In this document: one piece after another, positions 15,611 through 39,356 of the stretch
Layout: each line of letters starts with the position of its first letter
How positions within the stretch are numbered: position 1 is the first letter of the stretch
NCBI GenBank assembly: GCA_947179485.1
Contig: OX359246.1
Coordinates: 10,168,001 to 10,232,000, forward strand
Length of the DNA stretch: 64,000 nucleotides
From: Allacma fusca
Taxonomy: Eukaryota; Arthropoda; Collembola; Symphypleona; Sminthuridae
Direction: 5' to 3'
Translations under genes and position numbers: made by a program
The notes under the pieces: model-generated
Seen by the model: the letters and a program-made list of their open reading frames with translations, nothing else
The model's database searches: none
Told to the model about the DNA's origin: nothing

Positions 15611-16446
15611 ATGAAAGGTACGAAAATTTACTTTCAAATTTGAGAAAATAGTTAGGACCAGAAAATAATTTATTAGTCAAGTGATTCATCACATTAGGGC
15701 AAAGGAACTTGGCGTCTGGTGTAAGGTTTAGAAAATACGTATGAGTATTCTCTTATGATAAATATTTTGTATGAATTTGCAATTTACAACCAGAAAGGGC
15801 CATGTGATAAAAGGACGATCATGCGCGGAATCAAATAAATCCAATAAAATAATGGACGACGCAAACGTTATAATTACAAGTAAAATAAAATTATATCTCA
15901 GCAAGGCACTAACAATTGGAGTGACAACAGGTGCACAACCGTTCAAATGAAACAAAAACCTTCAAAGACCAGAAATGGGATCCAGTCGTCAACAGGTCCT
16001 CTGGGGGTTGAATATGGTCCTTGCATTGTCTCATGTAATTTTGTCTACATTCGATGCATTCAGATTGAGCTGGAAATTATCCCTGTAACCAAATACCAAC
16101 ACTTTTACATGAGGTTCATGGCAGCGGGTTATTCAATGGGTGGTTTGCATTATTTTCTAATAATTTACAAGAGGACTGAGATAGTTTCACTCATCAACCA
16201 GTACATGGAAACGATCGCAAACTTTGAACGTAAGTACATTCTACTCGCCAGTAGTTTTCCTAATAATTATAAAAATAGTTGGGCTCGACAGTTTTTACCT
16301 CAAGTTAGTTTAATCTCCATATGTATGTCCATTCCAGCTTCTTTTACGAGCACTGTTATATCGAGAGTTCATAGAAGTTTGTTAATGCTTGGTTAAATGA
16401 ATGTCTTGTATTGAAGGGAGATGTGGCGAAGGGAATGCTAGGTCTC
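15611..16446 (+). pseudogene. Chemoreceptor copy 2, 5' part, interrupted by the Polinton
   Basis: Aligns with copy 1: first exon 15,611-15,617 (ATG AAA G), exon 2 region to the donor at 16,230, and the first 30 bp of exon 3 (16,417-16,446). Damage independent of the insertion: the acceptor before exon 2 is changed (TTACAG to TTACAA near 15,786), a TGG codon is TGA in the sequence after GCACAACCGTTCAAA near 15,947, and one T is missing in the run near 16,040 (CATGTAATTTTGTC against CATGCAATTTTTGTC in copy 1). The 3' part resumes at 39,351. The gene has therefore been lost by several hits. Confidence 0.9.
16441..16446. repeat. Left target site duplication of the Polinton
   Basis: GGTCTC, repeated at 39,351-39,356. 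The uninterrupted copy 1 has a single GGTCTC (10,228-10,233) in the same context: GCTA before, CAAAAATTAT after. Confidence 0.97.
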
Positions 16447-16597
16447 AGTAGTTAGGTTTGGATACCTTTTTTTAGGACGTGTCGGTGGATGGGATTTTTT
16501 TACCCGTGAGTCGGATAGGAATTTTTGGCGTGGTCCTATCCTTTAACACACCGGTCCTATCCTTTAACATGTGTGTGTGTGTTAAAGAATAGGAAGA
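16447..16597 (+). repeat. Left terminal inverted repeat of the Polinton
   Basis: Starts AGTAGTTAG and shares with the complement of the right end the blocks GGATAGGAATTTTT-like and GGTCCTATCCTTTAACA. It holds one extra about 24-bp copy of the CGGTCCTATCCTTTAACA block plus a (GT)n run, so it is longer than the right repeat. Confidence 0.92.
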
Positions 16598-16612
16598 AGG
16601 ATGCTTGAGCTT

Positions 16613-16682
16613 GGCCCGAACACTGGAAAAACAGGAGGTAGTACAATAAATTTGTGCTGCTTCCTTCAGCGTTCGGGTCCTT
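16613..16682. repeat. Hairpin next to the left Polinton end
   Basis: GGCCCGAACACTG (16,613 on) pairs with CAGCGTTCGGGTCC (16,668 on), with further pairing of AGGAGGTAG and CTGCTTCCTT in between. Role unknown. Confidence 0.5.
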
Positions 16683-17034
16683 TAAGGGCGGAGATGCAGT
16701 AAATCACTGCAAAGGGTCTTAGCGCTGAGTACTCTGCAGGGATGACATTTATTGCACAGAAGTGCAGCTGCATGAGTACTCAACGACAATTTTTTAATTA
16801 AGCATGAACTTTTGAGTGTGGGAAAAATGCAACGGATAATTTTAGGAAAATCACTTTGGGAGAGGAGATTTCTGATGTGAATGATATGTATAAATTTAGT
16901 TTAACTTTGTGATTGGAGTTGAGCGGGTCCAGAAAAATATTTAGATTGTTGTGAAAAAATATTGTAGTTGTTTGAAAAACTTATATTAATTGCTCAGATA
17001 TCTGGTGATATTTATATGTGAACTTGGTTATTGT

Positions 17035-17245
17035 GAGCTGATTAAAAATCTGGGTTAAAAAATTACTTTCGAACTTGAAAAGAAGAACTGAGGAAAAATT
17101 GTGAATTGTGTGAAACTAAAATCTTCCTCAGTAAGATAAAATTGAGCTGATTAAAATCTGAGTTAAAAATTACTTTCGAACTTGAAAAGAAGAACTCAGG
17201 AAAAATTGTGAATTGTGTGAAACTAAAATCCTTTTCAGCAAGACA
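17035..17245 (+). repeat. Tandem duplication, about 107-bp unit, two copies
   Basis: GAGCTGATTAAAA ... TTACTTTCGAACTTGAAAAG ... GTGTGAAACTAAAATC occurs twice in a row with few differences. No open frame. It lies in the non-coding left part of the Polinton. Confidence 0.9.
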
Positions 17246-17791
17246 AAATATGGGATCATATTCAAAGGTTGGTTCTTATCTGATTCTTTTGTGCACGAAA
17301 ATGTGCATTATTTAATGAGTAAATACAACCAGCGATAAAGCCGTTAGTTTCAGCTTGAACGCAAATTAAGCCTTATTTTATTACAACTCGGAGTAAAAAT
17401 TAATGGCTTGAGCCTGTATAGTCTTAATTCTTCTTAATAGTTTCGTTTCTTATTTGGGCTTATTTACATACATCATGTTCTCCAAAACTTCAAACTAACC
17501 GTATGCTTATAATTGTAAAATATAATAAATTGCAAAACGGGCTCGTTGAATAGACATCCATTTATCTGATAGAGGATCTTGTAGAAGTAAATTTATCTCT
17601 TTATAATTTAAAATATCTTGACATATATATGTTCAGGGCTAATAAATAAACAGGATGAACATCTGCGTATCACCTGAAAATTAAGCATTCTCAGTAAGGA
17701 AATAGGGTGAGGGAGGCGATACTCCGACTTCAATAACTTATTGTGCTCTCATTCCCCACACTAAATTCATTGCAATTTTCTTAAAATTTCC
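17246..17791. other. Non-coding part of the Polinton left arm
   Basis: AT-rich with no gene recognised. A possible acceptor (TTTTCAG, minus strand near 17,683) could belong to a lost downstream exon of the SEC14-like gene. Confidence 0.35.
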
Positions 17792-18373
17792 TTAAACTCC
17801 AAAATGTCTCCAAAATGCCTGGTCAATGTATCGACTGAGATTGTGCAAGCTCTCCCCTCCTTGCTCCACAACTTTCCGTAAGTTTCATTTCCCAAATTCC
17901 ACAACCCAAACTACAGGATTCAAAAGGTTTAAAAATTTTAGAGTTACCAAAGCATTTTATTTAAGAATAATAATAATTATTACAATTCTATAAAATAATT
18001 GACTACACTCAATTGAAAATAAACACTTACTCGGTCTGTTTTCGTCATCATAGCCCGTCAAGTAGTATGGGAATCGAAGCTGGAGATCCACCGGAGGGAC
18101 CCATTTATCTAGAGCGTTGTCAAACTGAAAGCAACAAGTTTTGACATTTAAGGCCTATTCTGATACTCTGCAATATACATATTTTGTACTACAAAATTCC
18201 CACAAAATTGAAAATACCCATTGGATCTATTACACTTGTCAATTAACATCAAAAAAATATTAGAATCAAGAGTTTACCTTCACTACTGCCCGTTTATGTG
18301 GACTATTGCCCGAAACGCAGGAGGACATGGACCACAAAAATAAGACACAGCTAATTAAAATGAACTTCTCCAT
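17792..18373 (-). pseudogene. Secreted CRAL-TRIO (SEC14-like) gene fragment carried in the Polinton
   Basis: Three exons: 18,278-18,373, 18,031-18,124 and 17,792-17,910, with good splice sites (donors GTAAAC and GTAAGT; acceptors CTTTCAG and CTGTAG) and consistent phases. Exon 1 codes for 32 residues that read as a signal peptide (MEKFILISCVLFLWSM). Exon 2 holds KWVPPV and RFPYYLTGYDDENRP, and exon 3 VVEFGK and SLHNLSRYIDQAFW; this succession is typical of the start of the CRAL-TRIO lipid-binding domain in arthropod SEC14-like proteins. A TGA replaces an expected tryptophan codon at 17,885-17,887, and the rest of the domain (about 120 residues) is missing. SEC14-like proteins bind and transfer small lipids; this copy is a broken piece of cellular cargo. 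Confidence 0.72.
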
Positions 18374-20201
18374 CCTAGTCTTTGATAAATTCCTCAAAGT
18401 ATAGAGATTCTGAGAGCGGAGACAGAAATCAGTTGTTGTTTCAGCAATTCCTCAGACTTGAGTATGTAATTATTACTGTCTGTAAAGCAAATAAATTTAT
18501 TCACTCATGGGGTTGTTGCTTGCGCAAGGGAAACATAGTAAAATGTAGATCTTAAAAAGTTAGGGAAAAAATATGACGGAGCTAATTACCCCTGTTGTAG
18601 TTTAAAGAGTAGGGTCCTTTCTCGCAGGAGGAACGGTGGAAAAAAGAGATTTTCGAAAGATTTATCAGGCAGGGCCCTGTGCAAATGGCGATGAAGCTCT
18701 CTTCCCACTGTCGTCAATAGGTGTCCATTAAGAAAAATAATAAATTTGACTTGTACTGTATACAGACAAACTGAATGGAACAATTTGAGAGAGACGGCTT
18801 TCAAATATGTAACCACAAAAACAAAAATTACACACACACACGATATTGTTTCATGAACGTGCGATTGTTACTGCTCTCAACTCCCACAAAGTCTATGGAA
18901 ACTCTCATCCGTCTAATAAACCTCCACAGTCTTTCTTCTCACGGTTGGTGCGTTTCTACGAATCCCTTCAATAAGGGTTGTAATTCTAAAGGAAAATTAT
19001 TATCAAAGGAGTAAGTACTCAGACTTCCCAGGAACTCTACTGTTTTAGTATACTAGAGAAGACAAACAAGAAAAAAAGGAGCCACTCAATTGACAAATAT
19101 AAAAGAGCTTAGAAGCGTCAAACTTTGAAGTGCTATGTACTAAAAAGCACTGTATTCTTAGAAATGTAAAATGTAACACGAACTTATATAAAAATATACA
19201 CGTGCGTCTCCCCGTCTCTGATTTCAAGCTGAGTCAATTTTTAAAGGGTTGACGGGATTTAAGGGCGGCTTTCATTCCAGCCCCAGGTCAGTAAACAATT
19301 GTTACGGCGTAAAAGCCCAGAGTACAGTACATGCAGGGAAGGATCCTTTTTTGTCAACTAACCCTTAGGTTACTTGGGATTTTCCATGGGTGAGAGGGGA
19401 TTTATTCTGAGGATCCTGTTCGAAGGAACCTGTCCAGCTTTGGCTTATCCTAAGGGTTGCTTGTGGAGAGTGATTCAAAAACAATGTTTTAATTCGATAA
19501 AAATAACCATATGTATATACATATAAACTTGTGGTTTCATATGTATGCGGTGTACACCTTTTGGGAGATGCATTTAAAGGGGAAAAGGCTAAAGGCTTTT
19601 AATGACTCATCCTATGTATATACTTATACTTGATAATTTTCTCGAGAGAAATCAATGTAATGTACTTGAAGCCCTTATCTTGTGCTGGTAACCTCCAAAA
19701 GTAATTGTGAACAATTCTGCACTCTAAAGTTTCTTGACTTACGATAATGTGTAGGTAGGATTTGTATCGGTTATAGCATTGACGTACACTGGGACTATAG
19801 AGTACAACCTATGTATGTACGCCCATTACCCACATGTGCACTTAATGCATTAGCACTGGAATAGTGTTCAGTGGTAGTAAACAATTTGGCTGGAAGGTAT
19901 GTTATAGTTGCTCAAGCCTTCTCCTCACAATCAGACTCTCTCCCTATTGTGAGCATAAAATATCAGCACTGGCTTCATTGTATCTTAACAATAGGAAAAA
20001 ATACATTCCAATGATGCTACTTGAGTGTATAGGAGATACTGGAAGGAAAACAAGCGGAGTTGGCCATGACCGCTTCTCACACTCGAGCTTTTCTCTTCAA
20101 TGTGACTACTGTTTTTCCAGAGAGCCCTTTACATTTGTCTACAAGTAATTACATATCTCTCCAAGAAAGTATTTTGGTGGATAAAATGCTACTCATTATC
20201 C
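18374..20201. other. Left arm of Polinton, no recognised gene
   Basis: Several short frames on both strands, none with recognisable content. A short (CA)n run sits at 18,831-18,841. Confidence 0.4.
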
Positions 20202-20507
20202 TTAACATGCATTTCCTCCTGGATGATACAGTGCATACGCATACTTCCCCGGCTCGTGGAACTTTATCGTGAGGACATAAAAGAAATTTGGGTCAAGCGA
20301 AATTCTTGCTCTGGGGTTTTTTTCCCAAAAGTCCATGATAGTATTTAAATATCCTTTTTTATACGAAAACAAAACTTTTACAGGGATGTAATTATATGTA
20401 AGTACACCCGAAGAAAAGAAAATTGGAAATTGAGACTCTTCCCGGAACATCTTTCCCCAAAAATCCTCATAAAGATCTCTTAATTTCTGAGTACAATTAA
20501 GTCTCAA
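20202..20507 (-). CDS. Unrecognised exon-like frame
   Basis: About 95 residues from a possible acceptor (TTGTACTCAG near 20,485) to a stop: KLRDLYEDFWGKMF, then FSSGVLTYNYIPVKVLF, FWEKNPRARISLDPN and FHEPGKYAYALYHPGG. Composition is that of a folded, beta-rich protein rather than chance sequence, but I do not recognise the family and see no partner exon for certain. It could be a last exon of cargo like the genes to its right. Confidence is low. Confidence 0.3.
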   Translation of the reverse strand: MRLNCTQKLRDLYEDFWGKMFREESQFPIFFSSGVLTYNYIPVKVLFSYKKGYLNTIMDFWEKNPRARISLDPNFFYVLTIKFHEPGKYAYALYHPGGNAC

Positions 20508-22097
20508 GGAAACTTCAAGAAAATATTCTTCTTTGGGTTTTTTCTAATACGAGGACATGGCAGACGAGTTTTCCTCTTAATGTTATATCACTGTCTAAAT
20601 ATATAATTACCCTTCCCAAAATGCACATGAGCAACATATATGTCAAATGTTACTAATCACATATCCTTATTGTTAGCTTTGTGTTGCCATTTCATAAATA
20701 TAGACATTTTTGCTGGCTTACGTGACAAGCAGATTCTTTTTATTTACAAATTCTAGGGAAGCTGAGAATAAGCAAAATTATCCCGATGGATTTCTTCATA
20801 AGGAATTTCAAATGTAAACTCTGTAAAATTGGAAGTCTTCAAGCGCGTGGGTTATGTAGGAATGATGAGAGTTGAATTGTTATTAGTAGCAAGGTATATA
20901 CTCAGACATGAACAACCCAGGGAAAATCTCACCCCAAATTGCATATTGCATCAGAGACGTATCAATTTAAAACTCGAAATCAAAGATAATTCTTGTGGGA
21001 ACAATACAGTTATGGTTGGGGATATTTGAAGTATAATGGCACATATATGGGAAAAGTCATAAATTGAGGATAATGGCTTGTATTTCTCCGTCATGGTGCT
21101 GGTTGGAGGGTTTAGTGTTAATGAAGTTTGGCAAAGCATCAATGGTAATAAACATAATCATTATGCTACGGTCAACTGACTTAATGTCACGCACCAGAAT
21201 GATAACGAGTAATTGTAATTAGTTTGTAGGTACAGCACACAGAATGGACACTTGAGGTGCTGGCTTTTAACGCATTGATATTGCATTAAAAATTATGTAC
21301 ATTTGAAATCGACGCTCCTCATTCCTACAGATGCACGTTATTCTAGATTAGGCTTTCTTAAATAAAGCATATTTCTGTGACACCATGCACATTTTAAAAA
21401 GACGTTGACTCCCATTTCGTTAAAATGGGGAATATTAGAATTGCTGGAGAATGACAAAGTGAAATTTGGGAGACGGGATGTACAGCAAGCAACGGTTGGA
21501 CTGAATATTGGAAAGAGATATCATATTTGATTTAATTATATTTGGGGAGAATCTGCCGGCGTTAATAATGAAGTAATTTTACGAGGTTGCTTTTACCTAT
21601 ACGGGACGTAGCTATACACATGAGGGCAATTGATATGGCTGACCTATATATGTATGTATGTTTACACCTCTATATAATTATCCTTAATCACCAACGAATT
21701 ATGGAAGTATACGATGAAAGTGCATGAATAGAAAAGAACTGAAATTTCCTTAGAAGCATGAAAATGCACGATTAAAGTGCTTGAATATAAGTATACATAC
21801 AAAATTCCAGACAATTTTGAGAATGTACGAACAAAGTACGAATATGAGACAATGTTGTTAATATTCACATATCAGTTTGTCCCTGTTACCAATTTTAATT
21901 TAATAATTTTATTGTCTTAAATAAAGTACATGAACGATAAATGTGTTACAAAAAGCACAATCACGAAAATGTGAACACAATGTGCAAATTTTGGTTCGAA
22001 ATTCTACAAATTATAATCAGTCTTGTATTCAGTCCTATAGTTACCACATACGTATTCATAGTAGTGCACATGTAAAATTGCTTATTCTTCCACTTGT
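20508..22097. other. Polinton left arm, no recognised gene
   Basis: AT-rich, with no convincing frame or repeat. Confidence 0.4.
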
Positions 22098-23428
22098 TCA
22101 AGCAATGGTGGGTCCAACAGTCGAATCCGCGTTTTCGCGAATTAGAACTTCCAAAGTTCCTCTGACCAGAGGATTCTTGCTTTCCGGAAGTAGATGAAGT
22201 TGAGTGGGATGCTGCTGATGTACAGCTCGACCATCTCCATCATCATCCGAGTCTTCAGATGACACAACTTCGTAGCACTTGCGTGGATCAAAGTCATCAT
22301 CATCCTCTGACGTTTGATTCACACCAGAAGGGGCAGCCCCAACTTGGCCACTCATTGAATCCATGAAATTGACCTCACTACGAATATCGTGGTAGTCAGT
22401 GGTTTGAAATACCATATCATGGGGAATTTCTCCAGTGACCTGGTTGACTATTGGCGTAGCGATTACACCTGCAGCCGCTGGCAATGGCCCTCCAGTCTCG
22501 GACTCCAAGCCCAGCAGATCATTCAGTATCTGATTAAAAGTAGGAGAATTCGGAGGAGCCCAGATTGCTGCTGATGTTCCCGGAATTGGTTGATTCGAGT
22601 CTAAATAAACACAGGTTCTTTCTGAATGAGTTGCTTGGATGCTTGAAAATTTATCAAAATAGTAACTTCTCACCCGCAATGCTCAAAGAAAGTCCAGGGG
22701 AATCAATATCGTACCCATCGACGGTCAATGTCATGCTAGCTTTCTTGACCTCCAGTCTTTGACGAATTTCAGCTGGAAGAGTTGATGGTTGCTCAACTTT
22801 TATAATCCCATTGGGAATTAGCAATCCCACGTCGGGTTCCACTGAAAGGATTACAATCGAGTTGTACTAAATAATATTACTTTAGAACTGGAGCAAAGGT
22901 ATCAATTTATTGGCACAAAAATATACTTACAAAATATGGTGCTCGTTGGCAGGCCATACTCATCCAGTCTAACCAGCAGTGGGCCGTTCGTTCCCTCGCA
23001 GCTTTGCAATATAGGATCACTCGAAGTCACTGTTAATATTACAAAATTGATATGTGTTTTATAAAAACTCCTACCTTCAAGCAAAGTGAATAACCAGTCT
23101 TAAATAATAATTAAACATTTCTTACTCCGAAGTATTGTATACCAATCAAAATTGGATTTGCCAATTCGGTGCCTGGGAACTGTGTCCCAGAACGTTCTGA
23201 TGCTTGCTTCGCTATTTTGCACGGGACAATGGAACTTGTAGAGCTTTTTAGACTCCATCCCGCCTTCCTCCAGGTAGCCCTCCTGGAACTTAAGCAGCAG
23301 ACACCGGAAATGAAATGCATGTACTCTCTGGTTCACACCCTGAGATTTTTTGTGTTGCACGTAATGAAAACTTCCCCAGACGTTTTTCCCGAACATATGA
23401 AAATCGTCCAACAATGTCACAGTAGCCC
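22098..23428 (-). CDS. Unknown four-exon gene with acidic C-terminal region, in Polinton
   Basis: Exons 23,126-23,428, 22,931-23,029, 22,674-22,841 and 22,098-22,621 join through introns of only 96, 89 and 52 bp. All three junctions are phase 1, with GTAAGA, GTAAGT, GTGAGA donors and TTAACAG, CTTTCAG, ATTCAG acceptors. The joined protein is over 360 aa. The first exon is rich in aromatic and charged residues (LLDDFHMFGKNVWGSFHYVQ), the last has a Pro-rich start and an acidic stretch (SEDDDDFDP, SEDSDDDGDG). A short upstream frame at 23,460-23,535 begins MYCKICERHVDMPSGY and may be the 5' end in another frame, separated by one base or an intron. No family recognised. The acidic tail would suit a regulator, but that is a guess. 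The preserved splice frame argues that it was functional recently. Confidence 0.55.
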
Positions 23429-23815
23429 CTAATTGCTGGAGATATGTTGGAGTCTTAAAGGAACTATAATTTTCTTTTCGATCTTGTAGCCTGATGGCAT
23501 ATCAACGTGACGCTCGCAAATCTTGCAGTACATTTTCGGGTTTGAGAAAAATATTAGTCTTTTCAGGATGAAAGTATGAAAGGAACTGAAGTCTGATCAG
23601 ATCAAGACAGTACGTGAGCTAGCCAGTGAAAAAATTAAGTCGGAAAAACTCTGCATACGATCAAAATCAAATGGAGTTTATTCTACAGACACACGGCATT
23701 GTCGTAAAATTGTCGTAAAATAAGAAAATTGAATAAAGGAAATGCATCAGAATTAATATATTCAAAAATGTATATACGTATATATGTAATTGTTGGGGAT
23801 TGAGGGTGTGAGGAT

Positions 23816-24162
23816 TCACTCAAGAAGGACATTCTCGTATGTACACAAACCTTCATGACGAGTCTCTGGCACTTGCTCATATTCTGGTTCTGACATAAAT
23901 GAGCTGTCAACACTCTCACCCATTCCTGTGTATGAGACGAGAGCGAGTTCCTCTCCTCCTGACTCGGTCTGCTCCGGTTGTCTCATCACCCGCCAACTCT
24001 TTTTCCGGCACCAAATGATGATCACGACCATCAAAGCTGACAACACCACTAGCAGGAATAGCAATGCAATAAATATTGTTGCACTAATAGTTTCTATTAT
24101 ACTGTCCGCATATGCATAAAAACAGAATACAAATAAGCTGTACCCCAATAGGCGCCTGCAAA
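23816..24162 (-). CDS. C-terminal exon of a one-pass membrane protein, in Polinton
   Basis: After an acceptor (ATTTGCAG, near 24,163) the frame gives a short outer piece, a strong membrane segment (TIFIALLFLLVVLSALMVVI), a basic stop-transfer cluster (WCRKKSWRVMR) and a cytoplasmic tail of about 60 residues with acidic and tyrosine motifs (YTGMGE, YEQV, YENVLL). This is the usual layout of a type I receptor or viral glycoprotein tail. Upstream, 24,170-24,360 holds other short frames with cysteines, including VCNYRGSCYDC, that may be remains of the outer domain in shifted frames. Identity not recognised. Confidence 0.45.
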
Positions 24163-24163
24163 T

Positions 24164-24754
24164 AATGCATTTTGTTCAGGGCAATCCGACACGGTTCGAG
24201 AAATGCTTTTCACCGGATCGTCAATAACCGCCGGGTTGGTCACACAGCAAAATGCCTGGTGGATTGTTTGAATATAAAAACTTCCCCCTGAATACAGTCA
24301 TAGCAGCTGCCCCTGTAGTTGCAGACTAATTCACACAAGAAGAGAATATGATGGCAGAGCAATAAGTAAATATTCTCGCTATTGCAACAAAATAAATTTA
24401 TGTGTGGATAATTAAAGATTTCGTACTATTAATAATTGTTTCCATGGTACGAAATGTTGGGTACAAATATGAAATGAGCCAAAAAAGTAGTGTAAATGAT
24501 GCAACCTCAAAACGTACTGAAAACGAGATTGAGTCCCTTCGAGCAAATATTACGCATTAGGGTGAGTCCTTATCTTGTACGTGCTTAAATATGCAACATA
24601 AGATTGTTTGGAGATGCTCGTGCATTGTGGGGTTTTTCTAACATAGATTTTATTTGTATACACAAAAGAAATATAAATACATAATATAGATAAATGTATC
24701 TTGGGCTTGAATCTAAAAAGCTTCAATCGAAAACTGTACATATGCCCTGACTAG
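24164..24754. other. Between membrane-protein exon and Polinton core genes
   Basis: Possible remains of the ectodomain at 24,170-24,360 (see the membrane-protein entry); the rest shows no gene. Confidence 0.3.
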
Positions 24755-25464
24755 CTAATAGTCAATCATCAGCTCTTTCTCCTCATCTTCGGTATCATCT
24801 GCAGCAGCAAACTCGAACACGAATGATTCGAGGTTTCGCATGGCCTGCAAGTTGAATGTCAAGGTGGGGCCTAGCCAGGTCTTGTATTTGATGGCCAACG
24901 CATCACTTATGCCCCGATTGAGGAGTAGTTCAAATGCTCCTCTTATGCGGTTGTAAATCAGCCTGGCACGAACAGACGAGCTCACAAAGTCTGGCTCATG
25001 CCAAAAACTGTGCTTTAGTAAGTCCGGGTGATCTAGTGCACGGGATGGCCTTTTCTCAAAAAAGGGATGAGGTCCTCAAAATTTTGCCCAGGTAGGGGAT
25101 GCCGATTTAACTGGTCAAGAATGGGGCCGAGGAATGTAAGCAGCTGCCGTCCCTCGTGTTCGCTAAAGTTGATGGTAGTGACACTTCCCGTTTAATTGTT
25201 TCGTCCAAGGTGAATAAAGTTGCAGCGATGGCGGGAGTTGAAAGCCATACGTGCTAGAATTTCAGAATCAATAAAGTATGACTCTTTGCTTTTCTCAAAA
25301 AAATCCCAGGTGAATGGCGACTCATGACTAGCTGGAACTTGCTCGGGTTTAAAAGACTTTGAGGCGTCAAATGGTTTCAGCTTTGGGCGAAATCTCTCTG
25401 CCTCACTAGATGCTTGCCCACTTTCACTTTTTGTAAAACGCTGAGAAAGATTAAACTTTTTCAT
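24755..25464 (-). pseudogene. Polinton protein of unknown function, broken
   Basis: One gene of about 235 codons seems to run from ATG 25,464 (MKKFNLSQRFTKSESG) to the stop at 24,755 (KELMIDY). It is interrupted by an in-frame TAA at about 25,192-25,194 and by a frameshift near 25,055 in the run CCCTTTTTTGAG. The N-terminal 65 residues are charged and disordered. The middle (CNFIHLGRN, then VTTINFSEHEGRQLLTFLGP) could be a small beta-rich DNA-binding fold, perhaps PC4-like, but I cannot show that. The C terminus is acidic. It is transcribed away from the helicase gene, with 284 bp between them that would hold both promoters. Confidence 0.5.
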
Positions 25465-25748
25465 ATTTGAAATATTTCACTTGTAAGGTGAATAAGAGCA
25501 AATAGTTTGAGAAAGTGTGGACTTCCGTATATTGTTTCGAGTTTATATACCAGCCGAATGAGTCACCAGCTTTCTCGGTTCAGCTTGTCTTCAGGATTTT
25601 CTGTATGAGAGATATTCACCAAATGTAGAAATTCGTCCGAGGTAAAACAAGAAAATCAGTATGCGATATTTGTATGAATAAATTATCTGCTATTCTTCCA
25701 TCCATTCTTAATACTGAGCAGTGCGTGAAAATATCTCAGTGAACCAAA

Positions 25749-28060: not shown

Positions 28061-28061
28061 T

Positions 28062-29450: not shown

Positions 29451-29454
29451 ATTT

Positions 29455-29812
29455 TAACCAGATTTGCGTCTGACGCAGCGCCTCTTTCCTGTTTTCCTCC
29501 CAAACCCAATTTGAATACGTTTTCTCCCACTTCTCTTAGACGAAACTCTACGCTTCCGGCGTCGCCTTTTTCCGGCACCGGCTTGGACGTTTTTTGACGT
29601 TCGTTTAAATCCCCCGCCTGTCTGTGAACGAGTTCGCTTTTTTGTTGCTGCTGATGTTCCAGCACTTTTGGCGGAATTAGATAAGATGATGCTTCAGGGT
29701 TTAAACCGTGAGAAGCCATATATGTAAAGGTGTTGTCGCCTCCACTTCCTGTTTGTGTCTGATGCCCTGGTTCAAGGACACAAGCCTTTTCGTCACAGAG
29801 AACCTTACGCAT
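29455..29812 (-). pseudogene. Basic core-like protein of the Polinton, one frameshift
   Basis: From ATG 29,812 (overlapping the upstream PY-type stop by 8 bases) the frame codes for about 55 residues ending in a glutamine run (VLEHQQQQ). After a six-A run near 29,636-29,641 the sensible reading is in the next frame: a very basic stretch with KRRRRKRRVSSKRSGRKR and GRKTGKRRCVRRKSG, stop at 29,455. The composition resembles adenovirus core or protamine-like DNA-condensing proteins. The original frame continues open to 29,441 with an unremarkable sequence, which makes the shift easy to miss. Either an A was lost from the run or translation slips there. Confidence 0.6.
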
Positions 29813-31412
29813 ATTTTGGTTTGAAATGGAGAGTTACTGCCGTTTCAGCGTCTCCAAAATCAATAGGTTTTAGATTCTCGTCGACAAAATTTATGCGAGC
29901 CTCCGTGACTTGTTTATTCCTTAGGGGTAAATATATGACTGGGTTAAAATTAACCTCAGTTTCATTATTATAGTCCTCGTTGAAATTCAGTTCTCGTAGA
30001 ATGGGAACTTTTTGTCCTTCATATGTCTGATTTTCAATTATATTTGACAGTACCAGAAACCTTTTCATACTCCCAAGAATGTCCGCATCTCCTTCATGCT
30101 CTTCTTCCCATTCAATTTCTTCTTCCTGCTCCACAATCATTTTCCGAGCGGGAAACCTACTATTTCTCTTAAATTTGGCTTCAATGGGAAGCCCAAAGTA
30201 GTTTCGTAAGTCGGCTGGCAGCTGGATTGTGACGTCAGGCGGTATTTCATTGAGAACTATTTCTCCATCATCGTATGAGAATTGGATAGGGAACTGATCG
30301 TGGTGCTGATCAATGAATGTGTTATTCAATTCCGTAAATACGTCGCCAATGCTTTGCGATTTAGGCTCTTTCATGGCCAAAAATTGCAGTGAAAAGTACC
30401 GAGCATTAATGAAACGATTCTTAAGTGGGATAATGTTATCGAAAGCGGTACTGTTAAACGGAGTATCCGATGTGTATTTAGTGCCAAAATAAAATCGGTC
30501 ATTATTGAAACCGAGGCTGTCCAGTAACTCCTGAGGGAGTATTATGTAATTCAGGGGGTTAGATGTGGGAAGGCTAACAATCATTGTACATTTGTTTTCC
30601 GTGTCGAAGGAAAACATTACATTCAACCCTCGTTTAGATAGCACAGATGTGAGTCTGGCGAAGAAGGGTTTGAATTGTTCGTTAAGGTTTTTATGAAACG
30701 CAAAAAGAGAGCTAAATTGCTGATCTATCATAATAAAGTTCCTATTATATTCTCCATTTGTTTTGAACGTTCTAACAGAAAAGTCTGTATCGTTTGTATA
30801 TCGATCGAACATTGATGGATCGATTACATTACTTCCCACATAAGCGCCCTCAAAGAAGCTTCTCCGATTGAAGCCGAATAAAGATGCAAAAGCGTTTGAA
30901 AATAGAACCCAACTAGCAGTGTCTTGATTTTTTACATACAATGTTGGTACAAAATTTTTCCCGTCTGCATCAACATATGTTTGAGCTATCAAGACGTTAA
31001 TTAGTTTGCCAACACCGTTATTAAATTTCTCGGTAAATTCATAAAGGGTTTCTTTGCTCTGTTTCCGAATTGGATATTCTGCAATAATAGGGTTTTTGTA
31101 GTCTGGAAACAGGGGCCCAACCGGAATAGCCGCATGATGTAGTGGGGTGAATTTTTTCCGTGATCGCTTGAATCTCCTTTCCCTACCTTTTCTCGTCGGG
31201 TGTGATTCGAGTGATTTGGGTTGTTTAGATGTGTATCTTAAATTCAGCAGCCCAACGTTGTAATGATGTTTGTTATATGCAACGTCTGTTGGTAACTGCT
31301 GAACAATGTCACTAGTATTTTTAAACGCTGGTAAGTTACCCGTATTTTTCAGATAAACAAAATGTTCGTTATCACTAAACGGAACGAATTGTTTGAGATT
31401 GTTATGAATCAT
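29805..31412 (-). CDS. PY: Polinton PY-type structural protein
   Basis: 535 aa from ATG 31,412, intact. The N terminus (HFVYLKNTG ... KNTSDIVQQLPTDV ... NVGLLNLRY) follows the pattern of PY proteins of animal Polintons, where a short beta region precedes a long variable part. The C terminus (NFNPVIYLPLRNKQVTEARI, then DFGDAETAVTLHFKPK) is also family-like. An acidic insert (EQEEEIEWEEEHEGD) lies near residue 440. Probably a virion component; its function is not known. TATA-like TATATAAT lies on the minus strand at 31,468-31,475, 56 bp before the ATG. A longer frame from 31,439 lacks an ATG start. Confidence 0.75.
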   Translation of the reverse strand: MIHNNLKQFVPFSDNEHFVYLKNTGNLPAFKNTSDIVQQLPTDVAYNKHHYNVGLLNLRYTSKQPKSLESHPTRKGRERRFKRSRKKFTPLHHAAIPVGPLFPDYKNPIIAEYPIRKQSKETLYEFTEKFNNGVGKLINVLIAQTYVDADGKNFVPTLYVKNQDTASWVLFSNAFASLFGFNRRSFFEGAYVGSNVIDPSMFDRYTNDTDFSVRTFKTNGEYNRNFIMIDQQFSSLFAFHKNLNEQFKPFFARLTSVLSKRGLNVMFSFDTENKCTMIVSLPTSNPLNYIILPQELLDSLGFNNDRFYFGTKYTSDTPFNSTAFDNIIPLKNRFINARYFSLQFLAMKEPKSQSIGDVFTELNNTFIDQHHDQFPIQFSYDDGEIVLNEIPPDVTIQLPADLRNYFGLPIEAKFKRNSRFPARKMIVEQEEEIEWEEEHEGDADILGSMKRFLVLSNIIENQTYEGQKVPILRELNFNEDYNNETEVNFNPVIYLPLRNKQVTEARINFVDENLKPIDFGDAETAVTLHFKPKYA

Positions 31413-31522: not shown

Positions 31523-32468
31523 CTAATTTCCTGGGCTAATACTAACTAGATTTAAATCGTAATCATAAAACTGGCCTTGAACTTCTTCATTTGACTTATC
31601 TACTAGTTTATACGTAAGGATAAGTATTTACAACTTTTGACACACTAAATATTTCGCGACTATAGTTCTCTGAGTAGCCCTTTTCAAACAGAAGCTTTGC
31701 TCTGGAGATGCGAACAGAATCTCCAATCGAAAATTTTGGTGGAGATCTTGGAGCCTGGGCCTCTGCTATGTGCTGTCTATACAAGTGCCTCCACGTCTCA
31801 AATGAGTTTTTGATGGTAATTGTATTAGGAGTACGACCGATAGAACTGTGAAACGAATTATTATACGTGTCTGTAAAGGTTTGCAGTACTTTGCTGATGT
31901 TCTTTGTGTTTTTCTGAGTCATAAATCTCTGAAGTTTTGTGAAAAGAGTTCTAATGAAACGCTCGGCAATAGAAGCTTTGACAATTGAATGGATATGATA
32001 GGGTATTATTTCATATTTATCCAAAAATGTTTTAAAAGCAGAAGAGGTAAACTCTTTCCCTCGATCGCTAAATAAGTACATTGGCTTTGCCCGTGCTTCT
32101 TTAAATATAGATGTAAATGCCGAAATCATAGATTCTGAGTTCTTGTTTTTAAGAAGCCGGGTATAAGCTTTTTTGCTAAAGCTATCTACCACCACGAGCA
32201 CAAAATAATTGCACTCATTATATGGAGCAATATTTTCAATGTCTTTCAAATCAGTGCTCCAAATTTCATTGATAAAGTTCACCATAATTCGCCGACGTTT
32301 GTATTTCCGTCTGATTTGCCTGTGTAATGAATATCCCTCTAATTTTCGAAGCTACCGTTGTACGGCTTCCTTGTCCTGAAATTCTGGATGGTTTTTAAGG
32401 AAACCGGATAACCCGGAAAACGCGCCGGCCAGTCGTTGGTTTAGATAACTCTCAACAATTTCACTCAT
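31523..32468 (-). pseudogene. INT: Polinton retroviral-type integrase, broken
   Basis: ATG at 32,468 (MSEIVESYLNQRLAG). An in-frame TAG at 32,352-32,354 stands where tryptophan fits. Then come a basic region (RRKYKRRR) and the rve core: NEIWSTDLKDI, MYLFSDRGKEFTSSAF and SIVKASIAERFIRTLF give the D, D, E triad. PPKFSIGDSVRISRAK follows. Near 31,608 two bases appear to be lost; in the shifted frame the conserved C-terminal module resumes (NEEVQGQFYDYDL) and stops at 31,523. A lone HHCC domain is not evident, as in other Polintons. The enzyme would insert the element and make the 6-bp duplications. TTTTTATATA (32,484-32,493) is only 16 bp from the ATG, so the real start may lie lower. Confidence 0.9.
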
Positions 32469-32555
32469 CACACTGACACGGCGTTTTTATATATTCCCTG
32501 TTCTCACAATATTTACCAGGAGTTTACCATGCTCAACAGTAATTGCATTAATTGT

Positions 32556-33083
32556 TCATTTCCACCTTCGTTTTCCACTCACTCGATTCACACTCTTATT
32601 ATAAGAACTCTTGCCCACACGTTTAACTTTCTTTCTCCCTTTGCCTTTCTGAATTTTGCGGGGTCTTAAGTTTCTCCTGGGCAATTCTTGTGGTTTATCT
32701 GGGATAAGATCATTTGTTTGTTCCGGATGGTTAGGCAGGGTTGATTGTTTATTTTCGGATGAAGTCGGATTGTCCAAATCTTCAAACACTTTCCACTCTG
32801 GTTCTAACTTGAAATGTCCGGTTTTAAATTTGCAGCAACAAATATCCAGGGGCTTGAACCTTTTCGTTGCTGACTTAATAGAATCTGTAGAATGTTCAAT
32901 GTCAGAATTTTCTGTTATAGGCGGATCTATATGCTCTTTGTCCTTTATATCCTGATCCATTATTTGCTTTTCAAGTTCTTTTTTTCTATCATTAGTAATC
33001 ACTTCACCACTGTTAAGTATTTTCATTAACTCGGAATAAAGCTTAGGATCAATTAATCTCACTTTGGAGTAAACACTAAGCAA
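32556..33083 (-). CDS. Polinton accessory protein, acidic middle and basic tail
   Basis: 175 aa, open. The start (SKVRLIDPKLYSELMKIL) resembles short Polinton proteins encoded next to the ATPase that begin with a K/R-hydrophobic-P-x-L pattern; that is a weak link. The middle is acidic with one cysteine cluster (DICCCKFKTGH). The C-terminal 50 residues are strongly basic (RRNLRPRKIQKGKGRKKVKR), suggesting DNA contact. Its first bases overlap the end of the ATPase gene by 25 bp in another frame. Confidence 0.6.
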   Translation of the reverse strand: MLSVYSKVRLIDPKLYSELMKILNSGEVITNDRKKELEKQIMDQDIKDKEHIDPPITENSDIEHSTDSIKSATKRFKPLDICCCKFKTGHFKLEPEWKVFEDLDNPTSSENKQSTLPNHPEQTNDLIPDKPQELPRRNLRPRKIQKGKGRKKVKRVGKSSYNKSVNRVSGKRRWK

Positions 33084-33726
33084 TATTCAGTGGGGAAACG
33101 ATTTGATCCAACCCAGTACTTGAACTGTTTATGTTTCGTGTGAAAGTCTAGGATCAAGTAACCGTATTCCCTGGAAGTCACTGCCTTTAAATACGCTTCG
33201 GTTAGGAATGAAGCCTTTCCGGGAAAAATTTGTTTTGCCAGAGTAGAAATCGTCGATCGGTCTCTTGGAATATCAAACAGGCATGTCCACTGAGTATTTA
33301 TGTTAATGTCGCGCATACCCTTTGCATTCTGTTTCTTTTCTGTAAAATTAGTATTATAGATGCACCCCGGTGGTGAGAATGTTTAGTAAAAAAGTTTGTG
33401 ACTAGGGTATTATCTTCACCTTGACCAATTTCACTTTGCTGGTCATCCAGAATAATTAAACAGGGATCCGAGGCTAAGTCCTCAATGTCTTTTACATTTG
33501 ATGTAAAAATGATACCCGGATCTTCGTCCTGGAGCTTACGAAAGTTTGGTTGATAATCTGAGTATACATATATGACTTTGTCTATTGGTGTGTCAAAAAT
33601 TTCTTTTCTTTTTCTTATGATGTCTAGTGTTAATACGGTCTTACCTGTTGGCCCCTGTACAGTTGCAGTACAGGGGTGAGCAATTTGGAAATCAATGAAA
33701 TCCATGGTGTTTGAATAACATGACAA
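33059..33726 (-). pseudogene. ATPase: Polinton packaging ATPase (A32/FtsK-HerA type), one frameshift
   Basis: The first frame (33,298-33,726) has Walker A VQGPTGKTVLTL, YVYSDYQP, Walker B PCLIILDDQQSEI and the sensor-like TNFFTKHSHHRGASIILILQ. The second frame (33,059-33,316) carries the end: MRDININTQWTCLFDIPRDRST, then AYLKAVTSREYGYLILDFH. The two overlap and differ by one base near 33,310-33,330. This ATPase packages DNA into capsids in related viruses. The gene follows polymerase B with 35 bp between them. Initial context around ATG 33,726 (MSCYSNTMDFIDFQIAHPC) is as expected for the family. Confidence 0.88.
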
Positions 33727-33761
33727 CAGCGAATGGCATGTAATTAAAAATGCGTTGCTTT

Positions 33762-36700
33762 TTATTGGAAACAGTTGCGGGTACTTTCGTCTAGCTTATA
33801 ATGCCCCAGTGGAAGGCTAAAATTAATATCGTTGGGGTCACAGTATGCCCTATATACATCTAAATTATGAAAAGCCACCTTGTTCACTGTTATACAGTAT
33901 AAGTTATGCTTAATACTACGTATGTATTTAACGTCTAGTTTAACAATTTTATTGTTTTGAACTACGTCCGCATACTGTTCATGAGAGAAAGATTTCAATG
34001 AAGGGAATGGTATGCCCTTGGACTTCATTTCTTCTTTTCTATCATTATACAATATAGAGTATTGTTTGGATTTTAGTGTGACTACTTGGGAGATATCAAA
34101 ACTTTCAATTTTCCATTTGCCAGATACTCCTGCATTTACATTCTTAAAACTTTCCATCTCTGGGTGGGCTTTAAAAAATTCGTGACCTGAGTGTATTTTT
34201 GAAAAATCGAAAAAATCTTTATAGGAAACTAGGTCTTTCCATAACCTATTCTCGGGATCTGTAATTATGCTGATTGAGCTATCGGTATCGCAGTATAGGT
34301 TATATATCCGGTTACCGAAGACCCTTTTTAGTTGCTGGTAATACCCATAATAGAAAATGACTTTGGCCAAATCAAGTACTGTCACGCCTGCCTGAATAGG
34401 TTTATTTAAAACTACGTTCTTAGGGCTAAGCATTACAATGCTTACTTTCTCAGAGATGGGAAGAAAATCTTTACATTCGGGCAGTGACAATAAATGCCTT
34501 GATTGAGCCCGTGAACTACAAAATTTTATTTTCATGTGGTTTCTATTCGACTCGAGGCATTTTCCGAAAATCTGGTTATTCTGATTTTTCAAAAACTGTC
34601 TCATAGATTCACTTTTTGCCTCCTTTCTCATGTCAATGTTGTGTTGTATGTACTTGCGGAAATAAGCTTTTTCAGTGAAAGAGATTACTGTGTGTATTTT
34701 TTTCAAAGTCATACCCATTTCTGAATAATATTTAAGAGCCTTATAATGCAAGACATAATTTTCTCTATCATAGCAAAGTAGCAGTAAACGTGGTTGTGTA
34801 GTGAACGAGGATTGAGAGGCCTTACTAAGTTTGGATAAATTGTGTTGCTGGTTTTCTCCCAACTCTTCAAATTTTATAACACGGCGCTCTGGTGCTAATG
34901 GCAAATCAACTGTCTTGTCTTGAACTTCGGGTGGATATCCCAGTGTTACTTGTAGAAAGTACCCTTTCCCATCTTTGCTTTCACATAATTTCCAATCAAT
35001 ACGATCAAGATCATTAACACTTTCCCATCTGTAATTCGAATGAGGATATTTATCCAGCAACGCTGTAGCATACAGGCTTACTTTATCATTGTAAATCAAA
35101 TGAGTTCTATTCTTCGTTGGATCATAACCAAAGGTACTTCTATCATTATTAGCGGTCTGAATTTTCCTAGTGCAGAAGGAAAACCCGCCCCGTATTGCTT
35201 TGGAAAGTAATTCTATCATTTTAAAATCCCGTATGTACTCAATTTCGGATCCCGTATGATATAACAAACATTGGAACGAGTACCCACTACCTGTACACAT
35301 GTATGTTGGGTCAAGCCCGTACATACTCATTCCATTCATTCGGAAATTTTCCCAAATTACTGCAAGTAATAGTGTATTCCGAATATGTGCACTTTTCATT
35401 TGCTTAGTCGTTGTTAAAATATTCCCTATCAGGAATGCCACCATTCAGGACATCCGACGAGGTCAAATATCTATACGGAAACGGGAGTTTTTCAAAGAGC
35501 AAACTTATAGATTTTTCGGAAATGTCTTGCCGATGTTTTTTGATTTGGCGGTTATCCATATCGTTTTTTAATACAAACGGGATACTTAGATTCACCAGAT
35601 CGAGTGTTTTGGCATTCTCTTTCTTTAGAGCCTCAGCTAAAGTGCTTAGTTTAGAAGGACAAAATTGGCACGAATAGATAAAACGAACTTTCACCTTTCG
35701 ATTTCCTTGCCAGCCTTTCTGATTGGAATGTCCCTTGTTGTATTTATAATTAAATGTTGGCACTAGCACATCCCGTGCTGGAATTTCTAATTGAACAAAT
35801 TTTTAAGTTCCTTTGCTGATAACAGATATGTCTTTAGGATCGAATATTGAGCTTTCCAAATTTTTAATTAATAAATGCAAATCAAACCCTGCTCCGTTAT
35901 GGGCCACACATACTAATTTAATTTTTAAATTACAACCTGCACAAATTGTGTTGAGATATCTGCCGGTGGTATGGCAATGGTGATAGCACTTAATTATTTT
36001 CTTTTCTTTTCCGGTAGTTTGCATTTTGTATTCTTCTTGCATTTCTGATTCCTCAAGCTCTTCATCCTCTTCTCTTTCCACCGTAGTATTTGTAAACACT
36101 CGTTTGCAGAAATCGCAATCGGTCTTATTTTCATGTCTAAAAATTTCTTCCGCTGAAGGAACTACGAAATTGTTTGTTGTTCTTACTGACCACAGAATAT
36201 CCTCCGCATGTTTAAACCCCCTTTCGAAAAAATGTTGCATCGGATTTTCACCATCATAGTATTCTAGAGCATAGATTTTCTTAGCTTCTCCAATGTAGTT
36301 CACAATGCAAAGTGAGTAACTGATTGGTTTGAATTCATTTTCAATAGTTGTCGAGTTTCCTAAACTTTTATTAACCGGATTATTCACTGTCGTAGAGCAG
36401 CATTCAAAGTTCCAATAAAGTACATAATGGTACGGTAGTGTCAGTTCTGGTCTTGTAAATTTAAGTGTTTCGCCGTCCTTTGGAAGCTTTTCAACGATTT
36501 CCTTGTCTGTCCCGCAAACCTGCCTATGATCTGAACATTTCTTTTCGGAACCAAAGTAGCGAAAGCAGAGATCACAAAAGTATGCCTTTGCTGGTTTTCG
36601 ATAGCTTAAAAATTTGTTTAAATCGGTTATAAGAGCTAGATGGTATGCCCGTTTTTTCCCAACTTTCTTATGGATCAAAAACAAGTTAACAGTCTTTGCT

Positions 36701-37407
36701 CGTCTTGACTTACTTGACCTTATCATCACTACTTCCCCCTTTTTATGACTTAACACATTCACGGATACACCATTATTTTCTTCAAATTGGGGAAGGTCGT
36801 TGTAAATATTTATAGCCGATTTTATATTACAAAAATCTATACGACCAAAATATGTTTTCCATGTTTTGTAGCAAGCTAGATTTTTATTAGAAGTCCCTGT
36901 GATCGCATTTTCTTCTACCTGCTTATTCCAATACAGACCGGCGGCAATACAATATTTAAAGCAATGTTCATCATTGTTTTTAAAGTTAATAAATCCCTGT
37001 CTAGACTTGAATGGCATTTCTAAATGCCCGCTAGCACTCGAGTTCATAAAGAGCCGGATTTCACCCAGCTTTATTTCGAATGTTTCCACTTTTAATATTC
37101 GCCATCCGGACCCGTATTCCAGAAAACAATTCTTTTTTTCGATAATATCCGAGGCACATTGTAGTAATATGACCCGTATAGAAGCGGGGCATTGTAGCTC
37201 ATAATGGGATGACTTGAAGTATATCCTCAACTGTTTGTAACCTATTTTACCATTCTCTTCTTGAACTTCTTTTTCCATTTGCACCCCGACACTTATTTCA
37301 ACCTTAGAAAGTGTGTGTATTTCGTACAGTTCTCGAAGCAATTTATTTACGGCAGATTCAACTTCTGAAAATGTGATTTCGATTTCAGGAATTTGCAAAA
37401 AAGGCAC
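33762..37407 (-). pseudogene. POLB: Polinton DNA polymerase B, broken in three pieces
   Basis: N-terminal piece 35,803-37,407 contains a CDLCFRYFGSEKKCSDHRQVC zinc-finger region and the exonuclease part: YWNFECC at Exo I (Asn where the catalytic Asp should be) and AHNGAGFDLHLL at Exo II. A TAA at 35,803-35,805 interrupts it; the same frame goes on to 35,404. After a frameshift near 35,420 the C-terminal piece (33,762-35,444) has the family block ENFRMNGMSMYGLDPTYM, AIRGGFSFC, motif A region IYNDKVSLYATA, motif B region NQIFGKCLESN and motif C LYCDTDSS. This is the protein-primed viral type. The Exo III aspartate region also looks changed. The enzyme replicates the element; this copy cannot make it in one piece. 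Confidence 0.92.
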
Positions 37408-37506
37408 AAACCAGATATACAGATAGTCGTATTAGCTTCATGGTGGTTGTTTTTAAACTGTTTTGCATTCACATTTTTACACGAGTTATATGTTAATTTA
37501 TTACAG

Positions 37507-38934
37507 AACTCTGTTTCGCTTTCACTTGGAGAAGAAGCTTGGAGTGAGCTACTCGGTAGGGGAAAACCTACTATAACTCTCAACCGAGTTGTAATTCACG
37601 AGGATACTACCCCAAGGAAGAAACGTTGTATCCCAATCCAAGACTACAGCGATGACGAAAGTGAGAGCCATCCTGATGTATCCGACAGTTCTTTGACTCG
37701 TGAAGCAGTACAATGCTACGCTTCAAACAATGTAATTGGAATCTGTTTTGTTATTTTTCTAATTCGAGATATACTCATAGCTTCAACAATGACTTTATTG
37801 ATTTACTATTAAGCCATTTATTTACTTTCGATATATTCGTAGGAACTCAATTCTGTCCTTCACTTACAAATGAAGGTTGGAGAACTGAAAAATTACTTGA
37901 AAGAACGAACCGACGACAACATCAGACTTACTGCCGAAGTTCTAAAATTACAAGACAGTAACAACCGGGGTCGGGCGAATTACGGTGAACTCAAGACCAA
38001 ACTTGCCGGTAAAGAGCTGGAGGTTCGTGAGAAGCAAGATATCATCAATGCCAGGGACGAGGTAATCCTGATTAAGGAAGAAGTGATCCGGGTCCAAGAA
38101 GAGGCTATCCGGGTTAAAGAAGAAGAACTTACTCTTCTCAGGGCTCAACTTGTTGATGCACAAACTCGCGCCAGGAACTGCGAGGTAGTTAATTTAGTCG
38201 TATTATCCCTACTATCATCCCTTGTTAACTTGATTTATTTAAACAACTTTAGCTGCAATGCATCGTTGTTTTTCAATTAAACTTGTTGTTATCTAGACCT
38301 CTTCGTCGGGAGTCGTCAACTACAACTATTATGCCCATAACACCCTCCTACTCCGTGGGTAGGACAAAATTTCCAGAACCCGTCCCACCAGCCGTGTGCA
38401 AGGACTACTCCACTTCCCCGTTCCACTCGACCCTCGTATTTCAATAACAAAGTAAGTTCGCTATGTCTCTCCTTATGTCATAAATTATGCACTAATATCC
38501 CTCAATTACGACATTAAATTAATATTTACAGTTACCGATTGGGTTTCAACCCAGTGTCGGCATGTTCTATATATTTTGTTCCCCCAAACCCCTGGAACAA
38601 TATATGCAAGCAACTGAAGCTGTGATGGCACAGCTCCGCTCTCTGTTTGGGCATGAATCAAAGATCACCCTGCTCAGAAGGAGTTGCAGGGTGTACTTCG
38701 ATTCGCTTGCAAATGCGCAAGAAGCATTTGATAAGCTATCACAAACTGGCACAGGGAAAGTGCTTACAACCGTTATGGGGGTTGAGATTTATGTGAGAAA
38801 AACTTTCGTTCTCATTGATTGATTTTCATCCTAAAATAATACGCCAAATTCAGTTTTCAATAAATATGTATTGTTTTTTCTTATTCTTGCAGATCTCCCA
38901 ACCAGTGATTAACAACATCATCAAGCCCGCCTAA
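37507..38934 (+). CDS. Unknown multi-exon gene with coiled coil, right arm of Polinton
   Basis: Exons at 37,507-37,731, 37,843-38,184, 38,297 to about 38,450, 38,532-38,792 and 38,893-38,934 with good splice signals; exons 1, 2, 4 and 5 are all phase 0. Exon 1 has a basic/acidic stretch (PRKKRCIPIQDYSDDESESH). Exon 2 is an almost pure coiled coil (LKLQD ... ELKTKLAGKELEVREKQD, then repeated VIRVQEEAIRVKEEELTLL). Exon 4 is a small alpha/beta domain (KITLLRRSCRVYFDSLANAQ) reminiscent of an RRM, not proven. The last exon adds ISQPVINNIIKPA. Exon 3 does not keep one clean frame (TAG in the expected one), so it is damaged or spliced differently. A 5' exon must lie further left, near or inside the polymerase start (37,407). 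Not a known Polinton gene. Confidence 0.55.
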
Positions 38935-39222
38935 ATGCCATTTATTTATATTTCATTTTTAGATTTGCTTTCATTTCATTTATTTGCATGCCATATTTAT
39001 AGTTTTTAATATTTTAGATGTTTCAATGATGTATTAGTTCGTAACATGCATTTATACTATTTATAATGCATATATATTTTCATTCAATAGATTTTAATCT
39101 TAATACCGGCCCTATTTTGTATTATATTTAGATATAGTTATTAAACCATTGGTATCTAAAGCACCCGGAAATTGGTCCTAATACTTTAACATTACAATAC
39201 CCCTAGCATTGGAAAAGTACAC
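38935..39222. other. Polinton right arm, non-coding
   Basis: AT-rich, with repeated ATTTAT/CATTTAT words. No gene. Confidence 0.5.
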
Positions 39223-39350
39223 TCTTCCTATCTTTTAACATACACACATGTTAAAGGATAGGACCATGGTAAAAATTCCTATCGGACTAACGGGGGTAAA
39301 AAATCCATTCCAACTACATGTCATAAAAAGGTCATTCATAGCTAACTACT
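39223..39350 (-). repeat. Right terminal inverted repeat of the Polinton
   Basis: Complement begins AGTAGTTAG and follows the left repeat for about 128 bp, ending near TAGGAAGA. Confidence 0.92.
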
Positions 39351-39356
39351 GGTCTC
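39351..39356. repeat. Right target site duplication of the Polinton
   Basis: GGTCTC, the second copy of the 6-bp duplication; the receptor exon resumes immediately with CAAAAATTATT. Confidence 0.97.

Follow-up and report, generated by a model that had tools for sequence, protein, structure and literature searches.

A Polinton with Two Different End Types in the Springtail Allacma fusca, Probably Recombined before Its Insertion into a Host Exon

How does a large mobile element come to carry a left end of one type and a right end of another? The question is raised by a Polinton (Maverick) in a stretch of 64,000 nucleotides from the springtail Allacma fusca (assembly GCA_947179485.1, contig OX359246.1, positions 10,168,001 to 10,232,000), here called the window and numbered from its first letter. 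The Polinton proper occupies 16,447–39,350, in total 22,904 bp, and both of its borders are fixed to the base. The element, a member of a multicopy family, entered an exon in one of three tandem copies of a host gene as one piece and in a single event. Its sequence has the pattern of a hybrid of a common type 1 and a rarer type 2, which we consider to have probably recombined before integration.

Results

Borders and Empty Target Site

The termini of the element, AGTAGTTAG on the left and CTAACTACT on the right, lie just inside two copies of the target site duplication GGTCTC. The end motif is (AGT)2//(ACT)2, that is, the termini AGTAGT and ACTACT, beginning with AG. In local alignment, the two ends reach a score of 104, the maximum in 300 shuffles being 27, and within the outer 102 bp they agree at 82 of 101 aligned positions; the likeness extends for ~150 bp and includes a 23 bp insertion in the left copy. 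Clustering of the identical bases within the repeats was not beyond chance (P 0.22). A preliminary description of the sequence had reported a complete Polinton with base-exact borders, inverted AG...CT termini, and an exact 6-bp duplication. The borders, termini, and duplication all held up, its interval of 16,441–39,356 being the element proper plus both duplications, and the identification as a Polinton is upheld by the 6-bp duplication, the inverted repeats beginning with AG, and an RVE integrase.

The left and right flanks, joined with one GGTCTC between them, agree with 9,990–10,577 of the window in 531 of 585 aligned positions, gapless at the junction. The match lies in the first of three tandem paralogues of the host gene, A, B (the interrupted one), and C (61–63.5 kb). 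The empty site previously described in the same window is thus indeed uninterrupted, at 10,228, but it belongs to a paralogue and not to an allele; the earlier inference of insertion as a single unit is borne out by the duplication and the gapless flank match to paralogue A. Paralogue C is too diverged for base-level claims on the empty site. The exon of paralogue A at 10,204–10,522 is preceded by AG and followed by GT, and because the target begins 24 bases into this exon, the insertion disrupts paralogue B. The first matching exon of B contains an in-frame stop and a 1-bp deletion, neither of them present in A or C, and the differences between A and B fall in similar numbers on the three codon positions (8, 6, 8 and 11, 7, 11). 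Six host frames, among 10 proteins scanned, gave no family match with E < 0.1.

Two further observations concern the host gene. A fourth, inverted piece of the family lies at 41,422–41,788 on the minus strand and is 70% complementary to 9,660–10,026. An open frame of 136 codons (39,239–39,649, plus strand) starts in the right terminal repeat, crosses the duplication, and ends in the host exon; if transcribed, this fusion of terminal repeat and exon could be translated.

Sister Copies and Their Ends

We searched the genome, whose contigs are numbered C1, C8, C12, and so on (the window copy being on C8), with probes from both ends. With the left-end probe, 40 matches of 53 candidates were scored, among them the window itself and at least 12 other full-length matches at 96–98%; for the right-end probe, 40 of 51 candidates were scored and yielded 42 matches. 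Sister copies were defined as ends paired in proper orientation, 17–25 kb apart, and 16 of them were fetched. The AGTAGTTAG termini recur in all 16, each of which is flanked by an exact 6-bp duplication; the 17 duplications including that of the window are all different, and the search for sister copies with other borders found none. Base-exact borders, called rare for so large an element in the preliminary description, are therefore not rare in this genome.

Each of the 16 sisters has both ends of one type: 15 are of type 1 (AGTAGTTAGGTTTG) and one is of type 2 (AGTAGTTAGCTATGA). Among the 17 copies with both ends compared, the window copy alone combines two different end types, and its end-to-end likeness is 0.871, against 0.926–0.994 in the sisters. 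The count of 17 leaves aside a candidate pair at C12:39,040,688–39,064,393 and unpaired ends at C9:18.33, C12:21.05, and C8:7.16, 7.30, and 7.33 Mb, as well as at C5:49.4, C1:35.2 and 52.5, and C10:4.5 Mb and on C33.

Type 1 to the Left, Type 2 to the Right

To place the ends of the window copy, we used diagnostic sites defined without it. All 15 sites in the left 640 bp are of type 1, while 117 of the 125 in the right 1.3 kb are of type 2, with 2 of type 1 and 6 other. The right 254 bp are 95% and 92% identical to two type 2 places on C8 and 71–77% identical to type 1 right ends. Along the element as a whole (283 sites), the stretch from the left end to ~32.4 kb has 105 sites of type 1 and 3 of type 2, and that from 33.4 kb on has 5 of type 1, 164 of type 2, and 6 other; as the sites are linked, the corresponding Fisher value of 7e-66 is nominal. 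Maximum-likelihood trees agree with this division: the left end groups with six type 1 copies, C12a, C8-50.6, C1b, C1c, C10b, and C10c (99/99), and the right end clusters with both type 2 copies (100/100), T2_74.6 being the nearest (96/89). The type 2 identity starts at base 10 from the right terminus, which is the outermost diagnostic base. This hybrid of two types is a feature beyond the earlier reading of the element.

Where both type 2 copies agree, the switch falls at 32,634–32,744. With T2_7.3 alone it falls at 32,740–32,857, all 18 sites at 32,274–32,740 being of type 1 and type 2 prevailing from 32,853. The switch thus lies inside a PZ-like frame between the integrase and the ATPase, at the border of two Maverick gene modules. 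Support for type 2 is strong at 36.0–39.35 kb and, with T2_7.3, also at 32.86–34.0 kb.

Several details weigh against a simple junction of two types in this copy. At 31,016–31,047, five of six sites are of type 2. At 34.0–36.0 kb, the ratio of type 1 to type 2 is 31:19 with T2_7.3 alone and 46:20 with T2_74.6 alone, a lean that arises because private changes of a single type 2 reference count as type 1. T2_74.6 is itself type 1-like at 33.06–33.51 kb (3:0), whereas T2_7.3 is not (4:15). From these single-reference results, the right part may consist of more than one tract, and the type 2 copies are themselves mixed. The region at 17.4–25.4 kb cannot be typed against type 2, since the short type 2 copy lacks that stretch. 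Finally, the left accessory parts vary among copies, with C1d, C1e, and C1-41.7 strongly different in the left-end tree; exchange of parts therefore seems common in the family and not peculiar to the window copy. One shared deletion likewise points to exchange: C1a and the type 2 short copy have the same junctions, at window positions 25,802/26,957 inside the helicase gene, so that it is found in copies of either end type.

Origin of the Hybrid

The duplication and the empty site make it most likely that the hybrid was formed before integration. Two related element genomes would have replicated in the same nucleus, and, by analogy with the known biology of protein-primed elements, they may have met there as free, extrachromosomal replicons. 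Recombination near the border of the integration/capsid module and the replication module would then have joined ~16 kb from the left end of a type 1 genome (left repeat, accessory genes, helicase, protease, capsid genes, and integrase) to a right part mainly from type 2 (ATPase, polymerase, right accessory genes, and right repeat). The integrase would have joined the two ends of the hybrid to a staggered 6-bp cut, giving rise to the duplication. Crossing-over between integrated copies is disfavored, as the flanks would then carry different duplications; here both are GGTCTC, and in paralogue A the two flanking sequences adjoin.

The main alternative, which we think unlikely, is gene conversion after integration, by which another copy would have overwritten part of an ordinary type 1 or type 2 copy. 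Such conversion would keep the 6-bp duplication and leave the flanks untouched, and the many sister copies are possible donors. The tract would nevertheless span several kilobases, possibly discontinuously, and its outer edge would have to lie no more than 10 bp from the terminus, with only the common AGTAGTTAG as homology before unrelated host DNA.

That the assembly mis-joined two element copies inside the repeat is conceivable in principle for a repetitive element, yet a mis-join would pair the flanks of two loci, whereas here the same duplication stands on both sides and the paralogue has the two flanks side by side. According to the available part of PMC10427803, 80-fold HiFi reads lie behind qeAllFusc8.1, if this is the assembly of the window, and we regard an artefact as very improbable.

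An ordinary single-type Polinton whose terminal repeats drifted apart with age, as implied by the earlier account, would fit a decayed copy flanked by paralogues (A and B) that differ by 7–10%, but it is hardly credible and was rejected: the ends differ more than the flanks (19/101 vs. 57/701, Fisher P 0.0016), and the right-end differences match another type, as seen in the probe identities, diagnostic sites, and trees.

With recombination before integration as the preferred explanation, a two-ended hybrid locked by its duplication and by the empty paralogous site provides direct base-level evidence of two Polinton genomes recombining, most simply outside the chromosome. It thereby bears on the question of whether Polintons have a viral way of life or are transposons only.

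Gene Content and Decay

The core genes lie on the minus strand in the order, from right to left, polymerase, ATPase, PZ-like, integrase, minor capsid candidate, PW-like, major capsid, and protease (Table 1).

Table 1. Positions in the window of the element, its genes, and the host gene copies, with the basis of each assignment
Feature	Position	Strand	Basis
Target site duplication GGTCTC, left copy	16441..16446		Sequence and flank match to paralogue
Left terminal inverted repeat, type 1	16447..16605	+	96–98% to 12 other full-length left ends
Left accessory region	16606..25742		Short, mostly broken frames
PIF1/Dda-like superfamily 1 helicase, 514-aa open frame	25743..27287	+	Profile and PDB matches
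Protease, adenain-like (weak)	27509..28099	-	Peptidase_C5 E 0.016, below cut-off; S273R PDB E 0.03; motifs
Major capsid protein, double jelly-roll	28062..29453	-	23 relatives; predicted fold
PW-like small protein	29441..29833	-	Position only, by gene order of PMC8097293
Minor capsid protein candidate, 558 aa	29805..31481	-	Position only
RVE integrase, D34-D96-E130	31608..32351	-	Pfam rve 8.5e-13
PZ-like frame, holds type 1/type 2 switch	32556..33086	-	Position only
Mapped interval of type 1 to type 2 switch	32634..32857		Diagnostic sites
Packaging ATPase, putative, broken frame	33059..33795	-	P-loop and LIILDD motifs
Protein-primed DNA polymerase, putative, three frames	33762..37431	-	Motifs
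Right accessory frames	37402..38819	+	Reading frames
Right terminal inverted repeat, type 2	39201..39350	-	254-bp probe matches to type 2 places
Target site duplication GGTCTC, right copy	39351..39356		Sequence and flank match to paralogue
Uninterrupted target site in tandem paralogue A	10228..10233	+	Flank alignment
Paralogue A of interrupted host gene	9623..12229	+	Exons ~9.6–9.95, 10.20–10.52, 11.7–12.2 kb
Paralogue C, uninterrupted at corresponding exon	61134..63455	+	Sequence comparison

The integrase and the major capsid protein are firmly assigned. The capsid protein search gave 23 relatives, of which the three that carry a species name are all from Allacma fusca, the best at 98%, and the AlphaFold2 model (predicted local distance difference test, pLDDT, 82.8) found PBCV-1 as its best Foldseek match (1.5e-14) and the mavirus major capsid protein at E 6.8e-14. 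In two scans of viral contigs with the capsid protein, relatives were encoded in 0 of 8 and 0 of 131 pattern matches. The protease assignment is weak. The polymerase and the ATPase are putative and named by motif only: the polymerase frames carry DKVSLY, YCDTDS, and HNGAGFD, which we take to be polymerase motifs, but have no Pfam match above the cut-off and no credible PDB match, the PDB list consisting of 41 chance-like matches to Mdm2; the ATPase, a candidate for an FtsK-like packaging enzyme, combines a P-loop, an acidic motif, and a fitting position, likewise with no Pfam match above the cut-off. The PZ, PW, and minor capsid labels follow from position only. The minor capsid candidate has two relatives, both from Allacma fusca, and its single-sequence model (pLDDT 31.8) was of no use. 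Across 40 accessory and core frames, Pfam gave nothing better than E 0.015, and one left accessory frame (23,819–24,175, minus strand) contains a strong transmembrane segment.

The word "complete" in the preliminary description applies to the two ends; it does not extend to the interior, where three stretches present in sisters are absent and the polymerase and ATPase frames are broken. The copy lacks ~0.87 kb at 37,389–37,394 (three of three comparisons: L030, L027, and L052/L031), 78 bp at 35,376 in the polymerase (three of three: L035, L038, and L052), and ~0.34 kb at 33,061 in the ATPase (all 20 sister places matching both sides). The polymerase has an in-frame stop at 35,803–35,805 and a frame change near 35.4 kb, and the ATPase has a frame change; the frames of the helicase, the protease, the two capsid genes, and the integrase core have stayed open. 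This decay would have come after integration.

A Separate Helicase Gene

The plus-strand frame to the left of the protease matches superfamily 1 helicases (Pfam PIF1 2.3e-18, PHROG Dda-like 2.2e-28, PDB 1.8e-23). Among 5.8 billion proteins, its nearest relative shares 29% identity, and no entry among the 47 matches listed bears the name Allacma. At least 95% of the frame is covered in 12 of 17 sister stretches and is open in 11 of those 12, C12a having one out-of-frame indel; the other five stretches keep 250–665 bases, and the remnants in C1a, T2_74.6, and C9-18.3 have a common starting point, which marks an internal deletion shared by the three. The pooled ratio of nonsynonymous to synonymous differences (pN/pS) over all pairs of the 12 sisters and the window is 0.26, a figure that counts shared branches repeatedly; pairs with the window, which have few differences, range over 0.28–1.01. 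As judged from its conservation in sequence, the predicted helicase is a gene of the Polinton family and not an accident of the window copy.

Exo I-like and Exo II patterns were found in five of six polymerase stretches from sister copies, while the sixth begins at the edge of that region; in the window copy, only Exo II was matched. By these sequence patterns, the Allacma family has both a helicase and exonuclease motifs.

Further Copies and Other Elements

Short forms of 18 kb with exact duplications are found at C1:66,915,652–66,933,444, C10:310,585–328,373, and C8:74,647,827–74,665,821. The region at 17.8–21.3 kb of the window, considered as private to the window copy, is not so: three copies share it at 98% (C10b, C10c, and C1c over 18,001–21,000) and a fourth place at 94%, where ends of a fourth copy were looked for and not found. 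A second Polinton lineage, 75–77% alike in the integrase part, occupies at least 16 places on C1, C8, C9, C10, and C12, with a piece on C5; this count is a lower bound, with 40 of 174 candidates scored. Three ends of the family lie within 10.5 kb at C5:49,421,980–49,432,457, possibly a short nonautonomous form. The unplaced contig C33 (15,468 bp) has two left ends, 8,666–8,919 and 15,200–15,453, which point the same way, lie 6.5 kb from each other, and have identical scores; they are either tandem pieces or an assembly remainder.

The window also holds two retroelements. One is copia-type, at 49,871–52,885 on the plus strand together with 46,743–49,870 (RVT_2 6.7e-46, Pol_BBD, and rve). Its 1,004-aa frame extends beyond the polymerase, and the extra part, with three hydrophobic segments, resembles an envelope-type protein joined to pol. 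A search of 44.5–54.5 kb revealed no long terminal repeats of this element. The other is a long terminal repeat retrotransposon with 398-bp repeats at 9–406 and 8,493–8,890 that are 99.5% identical, a gypsy-type RVT_1 (4.9e-22), and an extra 459-aa frame at 687–2,063 with one hydrophobic segment. RNA families and tRNAs were not found in the window.

Comparison with Known Systems

Polinton and Collembola were not found together in the literature searched. The closest parallels come from vertebrate Mavericks/Polintons, which, in the available text of PMC8097293, are alike in their 6-bp duplications, in (AGT)2//(ACT)2 ends (the commonest end motif among them), in having most copies broken, in accessory regions and a size range of 12.7–24.6 kb, and in the gene order polymerase-ATPase-PZ / integrase-minor capsid-PW-major capsid-protease. 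Unlike them, as far as that text describes them, the Allacma element carries its two modules on the same strand while also having accessory regions, encodes its helicase separately, and combines two types; a search of the same text for recombination between elements turned up nothing. For Group II (insect) Mavericks, PMC10328495 names the absence of a VSR-like insertion in the polymerase as a criterion. The mavirus virophage, compared in the major capsid gene only, is alike in the fold of that protein, at 14–15% identity.

In the available portion of PMC11071308, Polinton-like viruses and Tlr1 share with our element a superfamily 1 helicase, a double jelly-roll capsid, and an RVE integrase. 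Their helicase is part of a fusion with a polymerase lacking exonuclease; here, no such fusion was found, and the predicted helicase is a separate frame on the opposite strand. The same source puts forward that the exonuclease and the helicase substitute for one another in elements of this kind, and a separate, constrained helicase beside a polymerase with exonuclease motifs is a counterexample to that compensatory relation. More tentatively, we suggest that the Polinton types of this springtail could exchange whole modules as free replicating genomes before integration, much as in a mixed viral infection, and that this lineage could replicate with a separate superfamily 1 helicase of its own next to a polymerase that has an exonuclease, contrary to the proposed either/or rule; the genome has enough copies with exact borders for testing both the recombination and the helicase points.

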